DNA from: Paractinoplanes polyasparticus
Lineage (GTDB): Bacteria; Actinomycetota; Actinomycetes; Mycobacteriales; Micromonosporaceae
Reading direction: 5' to 3'
Assembly: GCF_019710575.1 (NCBI RefSeq)
Contig: NZ_JAHWFK010000001.1
Coordinates: 124,001 to 188,000 of the forward strand
DNA length: 64,000 nucleotides
The notes below the pieces were generated by a model. It was not told where the DNA came from, made no database searches, and worked only from the letters and a program-made list of their open reading frames with translations. The translations under genes were made by a program, and so were the position numbers. This document shows positions 9,203 through 51,264 of this stretch, one piece after another. Position 1 is the stretch's first letter, and the number at the start of each line of letters is the position of its first letter.

Positions 9203-10039
9203 ATGGGCGAGCACACCGTCGTACGGGAAGTGGTCGGACCTTGGTCGCTGGCCACCAGCCGCAGGTTCTGGGAGGGTTTCGCGCCGGCGGCGCTGCAGGG
9301 TCAGAGTGGTGACGACCTGCGCACCGTGTTTCGCGTCGAGCGGGACTGGTCTGCCGCCACGGCAACGGTGCGGCAGGCGGGTACCGCGGCTCACATCACG
9401 GTCCGCGGCGATGGTGATCTGGACGCGGCCGCCGAGCAGGCTGCCCGTTTCCTCGCTCTGGACGTGGACGGGCGCGGCTGGCCGGAGGTCGGCGAGCGGG
9501 ATCCGGTCATCGCGGCGGCCCGGGCAGAGTTGCCGGGGTTGCGGCCGTGCGGTTTCCATTCCCCGTACGAGGCGGCTGCCTGGGCCGTGCTGTCGCAGCG
9601 CCTCCGCGTGGCGCAGGCCGCGCGGCTGCGCAACGATCTGCTCGGCGACGACGGCGCCTTTCCCCCGCCGCGTCAGCTGCGCTCGTTCGACGCCGACCTG
9701 CCGGGCCGCAAGGCCGAATACCTGCGCGCCGTGGCCGAGGCCGCGCTCGACGGCGTCTTCGAGGGCTTGCGCGAGCTCCCCGCCGAGGACGCCTTCGCCC
9801 GGGTGCGGCACGTGAAGGGCCTCGGCCCGTTCGCCGCCGAACTGGTCGTCCTGCGCGGCGCCAACCACCCGGACGGCGTGCCTCACCACGAGACCCGCCT
9901 CGAGGCCGAAATTGCCTTCCGGTACGGGCCACAGGCGACCGCCGAGCAGGTCTCCCCGGCTTGGCGGCCCTACCGGACCTGGGCCGTGCTGCACCTGCGC
10001 GCCCTCGCCGACCGCCGCACCGGCCGGCCGGTTCCGTAG
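9203..10039 (+). CDS. AlkA-type DNA-3-methyladenine glycosylase (HhH-GPD superfamily)
   Basis: The ATG at 9203 follows a GGGGGAC ribosome-binding site; a GTG at 9200 is also possible. The 278-residue protein has an N-terminal AlkA-like beta domain and then the helical core: SPYEAAAWAVLSQR, and the helix-hairpin-helix VKGLGPFAAELVVLRG. It should excise alkylated purines. In AlkA the catalytic Asp sits in a FPxxD segment after the hairpin; here the matching segment reads VPHHE, so Glu stands at that place. This may be a property of an actinobacterial subfamily. It is probably co-transcribed with the kinase-like gene upstream. The gene ends 32 bases before an insertion sequence. Confidence 0.8.
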   Translation: MGEHTVVREVVGPWSLATSRRFWEGFAPAALQGQSGDDLRTVFRVERDWSAATATVRQAGTAAHITVRGDGDLDAAAEQAARFLALDVDGRGWPEVGERDPVIAAARAELPGLRPCGFHSPYEAAAWAVLSQRLRVAQAARLRNDLLGDDGAFPPPRQLRSFDADLPGRKAEYLRAVAEAALDGVFEGLRELPAEDAFARVRHVKGLGPFAAELVVLRGANHPDGVPHHETRLEAEIAFRYGPQATAEQVSPAWRPYRTWAVLHLRALADRRTGRPVP

Positions 10040-23742: not shown

Positions 23743-24393
23743 TCAGTCGTCGTCGCCGTGTCGGTCGTCGTCGCCGCGGCCGTGGTGGTCGTCGTCGCGG
23801 TCGTCATTGCCGTGGCGGCCGCTGTCGTCGCGGGCGTCGTCGCCGCCCCGGCCGCGGTCGTCGTCGCGGTCGCGGTCGTCGTCGCGGTCGTGGTCGGTCA
23901 CGGCGCCGGTCCTGCGGTCGATGTCGAGGTCGTGCTCGACACCCTGGAAGTAGACCTCGATCTCCCAGACGGCCCGGCCGTGCTCGGTCTCCGCCTCCAC
24001 CTTGGTCACCCGGCCACCGCCCACGGTGGACAGCGCCTTGGCCCGGGCCTGCTCGGCCGAGATCGAGGCCGCCGCGGCGCCGGCCGCGCTGCCCAGGCCC
24101 GACGACGCCGAGCTGCTGCTGGTCCGCGGGCTCGGCGTGACCGACCCCGGCTCGGCGGTGACGAACGGCGACGGAGTGGAGTCGTCGTCGAGGCTGCCGT
24201 CGCCACGGAAGGTCCCTGCGGCCGAGGCGGACGAGGCGGGTGCGGACGGTGAGGACGGTGAGGAGGACGCGCTGGGCGAGGCGAACGGCGACGGGGTCGA
24301 GCTGTCGTCCCCGCCGGCCGCGAGGGCAGTGCTCGTGAGGCCGATGACGGCCGCGGCTCCGGCGGCGGCGGCGATGACGTACGAGCGCTTCAT
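23743..24393 (-). CDS. Secreted PepSY-domain protein with Asp/His/Arg-rich tail
   Basis: The 216-residue protein starts with a signal peptide (MKRSYVIAAAAGAAAVIGLT, cleavage near ALAAG). A Ser/Pro/Ala-rich linker (about 30-105) leads to a PepSY domain: ISAEQARAKALSTVGGGRVTK and AVWEIEVYFQGVEHDLDIDRRTGAV. The last 60 residues are almost only Asp, His, Arg and Gly, in DDDR and DDDH repeats, which could bind cations. PepSY domains are often inhibitors or regulators of extracellular peptidases. The low-complexity tail is encoded by GTC/GAC-rich DNA that may vary in length. Confidence 0.8.
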   Translation of the reverse strand: MKRSYVIAAAAGAAAVIGLTSTALAAGGDDSSTPSPFASPSASSSPSSPSAPASSASAAGTFRGDGSLDDDSTPSPFVTAEPGSVTPSPRTSSSSASSGLGSAAGAAAASISAEQARAKALSTVGGGRVTKVEAETEHGRAVWEIEVYFQGVEHDLDIDRRTGAVTDHDRDDDRDRDDDRGRGGDDARDDSGRHGNDDRDDDHHGRGDDDRHGDDD

Positions 24394-48238: not shown

Positions 48239-48979
48239 TCAGTCGCCGTTCTGCTTGCGCTCCGGCTCGTCGGTGACCTCGGCCAGGGCGGCAGCGGTGG
48301 CCACGGCGGCCGCCTCGTCGTCGTCGGCCGGACCGGGCGGCACGTCCGGCGTCTCCTCGGGCGGGTCGCCGTCGAAGGGTCCGACCGCGGAGGCCAGCAG
48401 CGCCGAGTTGGGGATGTTGAGCGGGCCGTCGGCGGTGTCGAGCACGGTGTAGAGCAGCCCGGCCGAGACGATAGCGCCGTAGTGCGGCCCGCCGATCGCG
48501 CCGGAGAACACCCGGACCCGCTGCCCCGGCACGTACGGGCGGGCGAACAGCAGCACGAGGCCGGCGAACAGGTTGCTGAGCACCGGCTGCGCGGCCAGGC
48601 CCAGAATGACACCGGTGACCGCGCCGCCGACCAGCAGGTTGCGCAGCCCGATGCCGACCAGGTCGCACACCACGAAGACGGTGATCAGGTAGCCGGCCAG
48701 CTGCACGAGCAGCCGCAACGGCGTCGCGGCCGCGTCCCCGCCCCGGGCGAAGGCGATCCGGTGCACCTCGCGCGAGGCGGTACGGGTCGCGATGATGCCG
48801 GCCACGGCGACCACCAGCGCGGAACCCCAGGCGATCAGCCGTTCCCGAAGCTCGGGCGCGTCGATGTCGCCCAGCCGCGTGCCCACGACCAGCCCGGCCA
48901 GCGCGATCAGCCCGAAGAACACCGACTTCCGGAAGTCGGGCCGGACCTTCTGCTCGAGCGCCTTCCACGGTTCGTTCAC
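48239..48979 (-). CDS. MscS-family mechanosensitive channel
   Basis: The 246-residue protein has three or four membrane segments and the pore-lining and beta-domain region GVILGLAAQPVLSNLFAGLV then YVPGQRVRVF, GAIVSAGLLYTVLDTADGPLNIPNS. This is the MscS core without large extensions. The C-terminal 50 residues are acidic and Ala/Pro-rich. It probably releases solutes on osmotic downshift. It is divergent from the cyclase-TIR gene; no cyclic-nucleotide-binding domain is seen in the channel itself. Confidence 0.87.
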   Translation of the reverse strand: MNEPWKALEQKVRPDFRKSVFFGLIALAGLVVGTRLGDIDAPELRERLIAWGSALVVAVAGIIATRTASREVHRIAFARGGDAAATPLRLLVQLAGYLITVFVVCDLVGIGLRNLLVGGAVTGVILGLAAQPVLSNLFAGLVLLFARPYVPGQRVRVFSGAIGGPHYGAIVSAGLLYTVLDTADGPLNIPNSALLASAVGPFDGDPPEETPDVPPGPADDDEAAAVATAAALAEVTDEPERKQNGD

Positions 48980-49107: not shown

Positions 49108-49200
49108 GGGCTGGTCGAGCGGCGACGATCCCGTCGCTCCCGGTTCTCCGGCTTCACGCGGCCATCGCCGCTCAGCCCCGCTTCTTCGAAGGGAGCACCC

Positions 49201-51264
49201 GTGTCCGGCGGGCGCACCGGGGACCTTCATGAGGTTCTCGTGGTCTCGTGCGACATCGTCGGCCACTCGTCCGAGCTCGTGCACGATGTGCAGCTCGGCC
49301 GGGTCGTCGGCCTCAACACCGTGGTGTCGGAGACGATCGAGGATCGTTCCGACGCCATCTGGGCCTCCGGCGGCGACGGCGGGCACGTCGTCTTCCCCGA
49401 GGGCGACGACCGTGGGGCGGCGCAGGCCGCGCTCGATCTGGTCACCCGGTTCCTCACGTGGTCGGCCACGGCCGGTGTCGGGTTGCGGATCGTCGCGCAC
49501 GCCGGCCGGGTCAGCCTGGTGCGGGGCGCCGACGGCCGCGTGCAGGTGGTCGGCAACGGCATCAACGTGGCCGGGTGGATGCTCGCCCGCGGCGGCCCCG
49601 ACGGCGTCATCGTCTCCGAGGCGTTCCGCCGGCGACTGGAGCGGCACGGCGAGTGGGACGGCATAGCGTTCCACGAGCCGCGCACCCTGCGCGACAAACG
49701 GGGCGTCGATCAGCTGCTCCTGCGCATGTCGGTGCGGGACCTGCCGTCCGCGTGGTACTCCCCGATCGAGGGTGACCGTCAGCAGCTGCGCGCGGCGCTC
49801 GCTCTCCGGCGCAGCGACCCGGCCTGGAGCCACCGCGGCTGGGAGATCATGTACTTCGCCAAGCGGATCCTGCAGGTCAACAAGAGCGACCGCGAAGCGC
49901 TGGACGCCATCGGCACGATCAAGAAGCTGCAGCTGATGTACACGACGCCCGACGGCGACGAGGACACCAATCCGTTCTTCGAGTACCTCGACCCCACCAT
50001 GCTTCGCGAGGTCGTGCTGTCCGCCCAGCTCGTCGAGCGCCAGTACAACGAGGTCATCTGCCGTGGCGGCGACGAAGGCGACACGATGTTCGTCATCCTG
50101 CGCGGCCGCGTCGGTGTCTACAAGACACACGGCGAACACGACTCACGGCCGATCGAGCCGCACTTCTCGCACCAGGAGGGCGATGTCGTCGGTGAGCTCG
50201 CCCTGGCTCTGGGCCGCAACCGCACCGCCGATCTGGTCGCCCTCACACCGGTCGTGCTGCTCTCGTTCCACTACCAGGACATCATGAAGCACCTGGAGAG
50301 CCTCACCGGCAACCAGGCGGCCGGCTGGGCCCGCGAGGCGATCGAGGGCTTCATCAGCCGGCGCGTCCTGGAGTACATCAGTCAGGACGTCGACTTCCTG
50401 TACGGCCGTGACGGCGCCGGCCCGCTGGCCTCGGCCCAGGGCGGCGACCCGATCGCCACGCTCAGCAACTACGCCGAGCGCATCGAGCTGCCCGACAACA
50501 TGCGGCAGATCACCTTCGACGACGCCGTCGCCGCGGCCCGCACCCCCGGCGCCCGGCACGGCATCTACGTGCTGGCCGACGGCACCCTGCAGAGCCGGGC
50601 CGATCCGGGTTTCACGCTGGGCGGGCTCACCTTCCCGATGCTCTGGATCGACCTGCCGGGCTTCCTCACCCTGCCCCGGCACCAGTTCGGCCGGGGCAGC
50701 GACAAGGTCAAGGTCTTCCGCATCGCGGCCGGTGGCATCGAGCAGCTCGAACGGACCGTCCGCGAGAAGCTGCGCCGGTCCCTGCTCGCCGCGGCCGCCC
50801 GCTCCTGCTTCGTCTACGACGCCTTCATCTCGTACACCGAGCATGACGTCGGCGATGCGGCAGCCTGGGAGCAGGCCCTGAAGGAGCGCGGCTTCCGGGT
50901 CTTCATGGATCGGCCGCAGAGCGGGGCCGAGTTCGGCGAGACGGTGGCCAACGGGCTCAAGCACTCGCTCGCCCTGGTCCCGATGATCACCTCGAACGTG
51001 CAGATCCGGGATCCGGAGGACAACTGGGTGATGCGGGAGATCACCGCCCGGCGGGCGTACTTCCCGCTCGAACCCCAGATCTTCCCGGTGGTCTTCGGCG
51101 CGGCCCGGCCCGAGCGGATAGCGCCCGGAGTGACCCCGATCCGGGTCGGCTCGAACGCGGCCGAGGCCGTCGACCAGCTGGCGCATCGGCTGGAGGCCCT
51201 CCGGTCGGGCCTCCTGCCGCCGCCACACGGCGAGACCGAGATCATCGACCTGCCGCTGGAGTGA
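49201..51264 (+). CDS. Nucleotidyl cyclase-like + cyclic-nucleotide-binding + TIR domain protein (Pycsar-like fusion)
   Basis: GTG at 49201 follows GAAGGGAG. The 687-residue chain has three recognisable parts. Residues 8-175 resemble a class III nucleotidyl cyclase: VVSCDIVGHSS (metal Asp18), ASGGDGGHVVF (metal Asp59) and VVGNGINVAG (Asn122); the Arg usual four residues after that Asn is Trp126. Residues about 262-366 are a cNMP-binding domain with the phosphate-binding cassette GELALALGRNRTA. Residues about 537-635 are a TIR domain: YDAFISYTEHD, a BB-like loop RVFMDRPQSG and WVMRE with the NADase Glu at 613. Residues 370-530 are unassigned. In Pycsar antiphage systems a cyclase makes cCMP or cUMP that activates a separate CNBD-TIR NADase; here all parts are in one chain. 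Activity is inferred only. Confidence 0.85.
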   Translation: MSGGRTGDLHEVLVVSCDIVGHSSELVHDVQLGRVVGLNTVVSETIEDRSDAIWASGGDGGHVVFPEGDDRGAAQAALDLVTRFLTWSATAGVGLRIVAHAGRVSLVRGADGRVQVVGNGINVAGWMLARGGPDGVIVSEAFRRRLERHGEWDGIAFHEPRTLRDKRGVDQLLLRMSVRDLPSAWYSPIEGDRQQLRAALALRRSDPAWSHRGWEIMYFAKRILQVNKSDREALDAIGTIKKLQLMYTTPDGDEDTNPFFEYLDPTMLREVVLSAQLVERQYNEVICRGGDEGDTMFVILRGRVGVYKTHGEHDSRPIEPHFSHQEGDVVGELALALGRNRTADLVALTPVVLLSFHYQDIMKHLESLTGNQAAGWAREAIEGFISRRVLEYISQDVDFLYGRDGAGPLASAQGGDPIATLSNYAERIELPDNMRQITFDDAVAAARTPGARHGIYVLADGTLQSRADPGFTLGGLTFPMLWIDLPGFLTLPRHQFGRGSDKVKVFRIAAGGIEQLERTVREKLRRSLLAAAARSCFVYDAFISYTEHDVGDAAAWEQALKERGFRVFMDRPQSGAEFGETVANGLKHSLALVPMITSNVQIRDPEDNWVMREITARRAYFPLEPQIFPVVFGAARPERIAPGVTPIRVGSNAAEAVDQLAHRLEALRSGLLPPPHGETEIIDLPLE

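Follow-up and report, generated by a model that had tools for sequence, protein, structure and literature searches.

We describe a gene of Paractinoplanes polyasparticus whose product, a single chain of 687 aa, comprises a class III cyclase-fold domain, a cyclic-nucleotide-binding domain with an intact phosphate-binding cassette (CNBD-A), a probable degenerate CNBD (CNBD-B) and a TIR domain. The gene occupies positions 49201..51264 on the + strand of the window, the whole 64,000-nucleotide stretch of DNA that was analyzed. Seven genomes, bearing the labels of three phyla, have these domains in this order and with the same conserved residues; the family is very rare, and the gene lies without a shared partner at a variable site. 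With a probability of about 0.4, we consider it to be an immune circuit that is complete within one gene and has spread horizontally, in which a slow cyclase would signal in cis via CNBD-A to the TIR domain.

One chain joins cyclase-fold, cyclic-nucleotide-binding and TIR domains

The open frame starts with the GTG at 49201, which is preceded by a probable ribosome-binding sequence, GAAGGGAG (49188..49195, + strand). The homologues L012 and L013 start with GTG at the matching place, behind the similar sequences AAGGGAG and GAAGGGGG. The GC content of the gene is 0.70, compared with 0.71 for the window. A promoter scan found none, and a terminator scan returned a single site, at chance level.

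Pfam assigns residues 283-364 to cNMP_binding (PF00027, E 3.5e-15) and residues 542-659 to TIR_2 (E 4.7e-8), and both families were found in all seven homologues. Together with the profile and fold searches presented below, these matches bear out the preliminary description, made from the DNA letters, of a cyclase, a CNBD and a TIR domain following one another in one chain, a layout kept in 7/7. In a model of the full protein, the mean pLDDT is 67.8 and the pTM 0.46, and CNBD-A is not folded (pLDDT <50 for residues 274-361); we therefore state no arrangement of the domains relative to each other.

The N-terminal domain has a class III cyclase fold and a mixed active site

The N-terminal domain covers residues about 9-180 (49225..49740, + strand). 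No cyclase family of Pfam matches the window protein at E <= 1, and no PADLOC model matches its N-terminal domain alone at E <= 10. DUF2652 (Pfam) appears in one of the seven homologues at a non-significant E of 0.18, and an NCBIfam kinase/cyclase model aligns with residues 68-160 far below its threshold (E 0.022, 12.5 bits, cut-off 706). A profile built from six N-terminal domains retrieved class III cyclases from the PDB as 9 of the 10 sequences at E <= 1, with a best E of 0.0037. Using hhalign, we compared the N-terminal domain with the class III cyclase domains of four frames from the same genome, which served as a control alignment only, and obtained a probability of 73 (E 3.1e-5, 135 columns), while a control profile made from the middle domain of the protein reached a probability of only 0.2 against the same cyclase domains. 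In fold searches with the full model, the matches listed (50 from Foldseek and 50 from VIA) were all class III cyclases, the best Foldseek match of the cyclase domain being Rv1900c (TM 0.82); PycC structures are absent among the 50 VIA matches listed, to which we give no weight either way. The cyclase identity of this domain, which the preliminary description had left to be refuted by a profile search, thus withstood that search, and a class III cyclase fold is supported despite the missing Pfam and PADLOC cyclase matches.

The active site was mapped by alignment to 3ET6, in which the Glu/Cys guanylyl pair is visible, and the roles of the mapped positions are those of the class III cyclase literature. 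The canonical base-selecting pairs are Lys/Asp in adenylyl cyclases and Glu/Cys in guanylyl cyclases. Asp18 and Asp59, proposed beforehand as the metal positions, do align there and are invariant in 7/7, as are Asn122, Lys166, His22, His62 and Arg113. Of the transition-state pair of active class III cyclases, the Asn is kept in all seven copies and the Arg in one, so that the pair is incomplete: the Arg position (Trp126 in the window protein) is Trp in 5/7, Ser in L019 and Arg in L020. The base-selecting positions, Ala55 and Gln115, hold Ala in 7/7 and Gln in 6/7 (Glu in L019), and neither the adenylyl nor the guanylyl pair is present in any of the seven. The excerpted text of PMC4886424 agrees with the mapped roles and describes some active cyclases that lack the transition-state Asn; an incomplete Asn/Arg pair therefore lowers the chance of cyclase activity and does not exclude it. 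With Trp at the position of the transition-state Arg, the name cyclase may here designate a slow enzyme or a dead one.

Rv1900c likewise has an atypical active-site set in its cyclase domain (1YBT/1YBU). By alignment and by the excerpt of PMC4886424, however, the two differ in opposite ways: in Rv1900c the Arg is present and the Asn missing, in the window protein the Asn is present and the Arg missing. Around the metal Asp pair, we also noticed Cys17, His22 and His62 (49249-49251, 49264-49266 and 49384-49386), which flank it and are invariant in 7/7; they could possibly form an unusual metal site or a contact to the base.

An intact and a probably degenerate CNBD precede the TIR domain

A linker (residues 181-251, 49741..49953, + strand), mostly helical in the model and invariant in 9 of 71 columns across the seven sequences, leads to CNBD-A (residues 252-365, 49954..50295, + strand). 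Its phosphate-binding cassette had been described as intact, and we can confirm this: Glu332, Arg341 and Thr342 are invariant in 7/7. CNBD-A scores higher against PKA, PKG and MlotiK1 than against PycTIR.

The following region, about residues 370-530, had been suggested as a new regulatory domain. The fold search points elsewhere, finding a CNBD fold in residues 366-535 (50296..50805, + strand), with query-side TM values of 0.33-0.51 among the matches listed and a Z slightly above 7-8, the range typical of the tool for models without a clear match. No link between the CNBD-A and CNBD-B profiles was returned by hhalign (probability 0.1), and the only row obtained with the middle-domain profile against the PDB was SLC9C1 (E 0.82). 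The cassette arrangement, GE plus R-[TSA]-A, is absent from this region in 7/7, isolated single motifs occurring in four. On the basis of the fold search, we regard the middle region, with moderate confidence, as probably a degenerate CNBD without cassette. The CNBD-homology domains of EAG and SKOR channels have the same fold, whereas CNBD-B has a true CNBD before it and a TIR domain after it.

The TIR domain comprises residues 536-668 (50806..51204, + strand). WxxxE is the motif that holds the catalytic Glu of TIR NADases, and W609-x3-E613 carries it here, as had been noted beforehand; Trp609, Arg612 and Glu613 are invariant in 7/7. A phmmer search of the TIR domain against the PDB gave just one row, which is unrelated (E 0.38), so that the assignment relies on Pfam and PADLOC.

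The family is very rare and patchily distributed

Six further proteins share the layout. Four are from actinomycetes, namely Phytohabitans suffuscus (L012/L017, 64% identity), a member of another genus of the same family as the window genome (L013, 61%), a member of its genus (L008, 42%) and Sphaerisporangium corydalis (L018, 41%). The other two, from a Hyphomicrobium MAG (L019, 30%) and a Verrucomicrobia MAG (L020, 32%, with a tblastn match reaching residue 614 and TIR_2 found), bear phylum labels that depend on correct binning. A tree of the seven proteins has four inner branches, none of them fully supported and three open, and we therefore use plain identities only. Invariant columns among the seven sequences number 40/172 in the cyclase domain, 24/114 in CNBD-A, 11/170 in CNBD-B and 12/133 in the TIR domain; better-kept cyclase and CNBD-A domains are what would be expected if the nucleotide half were a working switch.

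The gene was found in 4 of 354 genomes of its own taxonomic family, the window genome included. In draws from its phylum (1/396) and class (1/316), the one carrier was the window genome itself each time, and in draws around other hosts (1/289; 1/250, with the N-terminal domain profile; 1/249) it was the host itself; in the phylum, class and host draws, 2 to 12 first-look candidates per genome were scored under strict limits. In a collection of 84,980 species, a pattern scan with the single protein gave 10 stretches, none of them a relative, while a scan with alignment A1 gave 63 stretches, including four relatives; the latter scan used two short motifs and missed the copies of genomes G016 and G377, and may thus undercount. 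None of 11 pattern matches in viral contigs was a relative, and 50,697 phage records contained no match. Among plasmids, 52 records matched, none of them covering 80% of the query and all at <60% identity; in the best 20 of these 52, <=18% of the query was covered, over the CNBD. The family is very rare. Its patchy presence, its three phylum labels and the variable site described below argue for a mobile accessory gene.

The gene lies at a variable site that is not a defence island

Upstream, the gene is flanked by a divergent gene for an MscS-type channel (48239-48979, - strand) and downstream by a convergent VOC/glyoxalase gene (- strand, stop at 51242), beyond which a WYL regulator gene comes next, according to Pfam searches on six window neighbours. 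Three genomes of the same genus have both flanks. In G026, the MscS and VOC flanks are only about 440-490 bp apart, which represents an empty site. In G002, an ORF resembling, by eye, a secreted peptidoglycan-binding protein lies between them, and in G033, the nearest relative (90% in MscS), the flanks are separated by about 3.2-3.3 kb, in which other ORFs and tandem repeats lie. The interval between MscS and VOC thus seems to be a turnover site; in G032, G034 and G084, the stretch examined held no VOC match and is uninformative on the site. The repeats in G033 (L052:8019-8617 and 9536-9726) consist of 7.1 copies of an 85-bp unit and 3.8 copies of a 51-bp unit, beside unrelated ORFs.

No partner gene common to all seven loci was found within about 6-9 kb. 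An all-against-all comparison of frames of at least 80 aa around these loci yielded six similar pairs, which involve a window frame at a distance of about 7 kb as well as L015, L016 and L020. They resemble generic genes for response regulators or sensor kinases, and the only similar frames adjoining the gene at more than one locus, beside L016, were of this response-regulator/kinase-like kind. Among 10 neighbours searched with PADLOC, only generic MerR and WYL regulators matched at E <= 1e-5, and the locus is not a defence island. A role of the WYL regulator in defence was weighed and rejected, as it adjoins the VOC gene also in G026, G002 and G033, where the cyclase-CNBD-TIR gene is missing. 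Not every copy stands alone, since the end of the cyclase-CNBD-TIR gene of G016 shares 8 bases with an overlapping 8xMP gene (PF24838, E 1.1e-36; L016:8060-8689, - strand). In that genome, a second, membrane effector (an octameric membrane protein) may be attached to the system; PADLOC had no match for this 8xMP protein.

Comparison with Pycsar and other nucleotide-signalling defences

Pycsar (PycC plus PycTIR) and the window family have in common a class III cyclase fold, a cassette CNBD and a TIR domain, presumed to act as a cNMP-gated NADase. In PycTIR, itself a CNBD-TIR protein, cUMP turns the NADase on by way of oligomerization (PMC11224242, excerpt). Pycsar is encoded by two genes, whereas the window family is a single chain, which moreover contains an extra, degenerate CNBD and lacks the transition-state Arg in 6/7. 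Further marks of Pycsar are cCMP or cUMP as the product, protection from phage and, on the C-helix of PycTIR, an Asn and an Arg that contact uracil. According to the same excerpt, the PycC enzymes of clades D and E have an aromatic residue two positions before the first metal Asp, and a Lys or Arg two or four positions before the second; these offsets were computed from the residue numbers given there, and the comparison covered clades D and E. These base-selecting residues are absent from the window protein, which has S16, A55, G57 and H62. Ser, Gly and Ala would make for a roomier pocket, which speaks against a pyrimidine selectivity of the clade D/E type.

The protein had been called Pycsar-like in advance. 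This likeness stands as far as the cyclase fold, the two metal Asp, the cassette CNBD and the TIR Glu are concerned, and it fails on the two separate genes and on the clade D/E base residues; because these two tested features fail, we do not file the family as Pycsar. Nor is an identity with Pycsar supported by the N-terminal domain, which alone has no PADLOC match at E <= 10, or by CNBD-A, with its better scores against PKA, PKG and MlotiK1. The family may still work like a one-chain Pycsar.

Across the seven members, the CNBD part matches Pycsar models of PADLOC in 7/7, with SAVED-TIR matched in 4/7, PDC-S66 in 5/7 and two ThsB models in 2/7 each. In the PycC model PDLC00734, positions 21-149 are matched by CNBD regions of the window genome, and positions 174-342 by its class III cyclase frames. 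This model thus has the order CNBD then cyclase, without a TIR domain, and the window protein matches it by its CNBD (residues 264-359), a second weak stretch matching at E <= 1. Since CNBD regions match one end of the model, a match to PDLC00734 alone does not indicate a cyclase. One of the control genomes, that of E. coli, also gives a match to this model, presumably through CRP.

CBASS SAVED-TIR and Thoeris ThsB are likewise TIR-family proteins of nucleotide-signal defences; the window family, in contrast, has no SAVED or SLOG match and carries a cyclase-fold domain in the same chain. With Panoptes (OptS/OptE), it shares the coupling of a nucleotide maker to a nucleotide-gated killer and, possibly, a decoy logic; the maker differs, being mCpol (OptS) in Panoptes, whereas both profile and fold searches place the N-terminal domain with the class III cyclases. 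To judge from the model positions in PDLC00734, a CNBD and a cyclase in one chain seem not to be new by themselves. The novelty lies in the TIR domain carried by such a chain, in the degenerate CNBD-B and in the mixed active site of the family; among titles and abstract starts of the papers listed from the open-licence PMC literature, we found no report of a cyclase-CNBD-TIR chain.

Proposed mechanism and alternatives

In the model that we favor, the class III cyclase-fold domain, expected to be a dimer, would bind metal and NTP, and infection would trigger slow synthesis of a cyclic nucleotide, more likely a purine than a pyrimidine. The product would be captured by CNBD-A of the same chain or of the dimer partner through the intact cassette, the cassette-less CNBD-B would pass the movement on, and the TIR domains, turned on in this way, would oligomerize and cleave NAD, such that growth would stop before the phage matures. 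We infer that the protein could do without the rate-raising Arg because a signal captured in cis would need just one turnover per chain, the contacts to metal, NTP and cNMP staying fixed although the Arg is lost. Counting against such a circuit are the Arg present in 1/7, the replaced base pair, the missing Pfam and PADLOC cyclase matches and a locus that is no defence island.

The same active site is compatible with a possible, if somewhat unlikely, alternative, in which the cyclase domain is dead, serving to dimerize the protein and to sense NTP in a metal-dependent manner, CNBD-A responds to a cNMP made elsewhere in the cell, and the nucleotide occupancy of both domains sets the state of the TIR domain. 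This would agree with the loss of the transition-state Arg in 6/7 and the replaced base-selecting pair, and a cNMP could be supplied by the cyclases of the same genome, where PF00211 is matched 6 times, in 5 frames. Inactive cyclase domains have been described in conflict systems, where they may merely bind a nucleotide (Kaur et al., PMC7159879, excerpt). However, all seven copies retain the two metal Asp, Asn122 and Lys166 at identities down to about 30%, a conservation that exceeds the need of an NTP-independent dimerization, and L020 retains the transition-state Arg too. A function outside defence, as a cyclic-nucleotide-responsive protein of ordinary physiology whose TIR domain would be a scaffold or signal maker, is unlikely in our estimate: the neighbours do look like housekeeping genes (by eye in the loci read, by Pfam for the six window neighbours), and no match was found in the 50,697 phage records and no relative among the 11 viral-contig pattern matches, but the very patchy presence (4/354, 1/396, 1/316), the three phylum labels, the variable site and a WxxxE kept in 7/7 argue the other way.

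The sign of the switch matters for a further reading, a Panoptes-like decoy guard within one molecule, where a constant supply of its own cNMP would fill CNBD-A and hold the TIR domain off, until a phage enzyme that destroys cNMPs, for instance Apyc1, frees it. OptS/OptE of Panoptes works in this way, and its authors speculate on guards for Pycsar and Thoeris signals (PMC12657218, excerpt); Apyc1 cleaves all cNMPs (PMC9117128, excerpt), and a slow cyclase with a tightly held product would suit steady occupancy. Yet the sequence does not tell in which direction the switch works, and the known CNBD-TIR effector is turned on, not off, by its ligand (PMC11224242, excerpt), and we hold such a guard to be very improbable. 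If true, it would be a Pycsar-side, single-protein counterpart of Panoptes, and the cleavage of all cNMPs by Apyc1 puts a phage-side test at hand.

In Pycsar and Panoptes, the messenger diffuses from one protein to another, and it is this messenger that phage sponges and phosphodiesterases attack. If synthesis, sensing and execution all took place inside one chain, the messenger would be hidden from such attack, or the attack itself would become the trigger. The mixed active site of the family, with the metal Asp and the Asn kept and the Arg mostly lost, would be a test of the minimal catalysis required for a signal in cis.

Additional observations

Further class III cyclase frames are present in the window genome (G000), on contigs C63, C46, C42, C47 and C75 (L001-L006), two of them exceeding 1,200 codons. 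Elsewhere in the window, positions 23746-23899 hold a short tandem repeat array with a unit of 18/36 bp, resembling GTCGTCGTCGCC.
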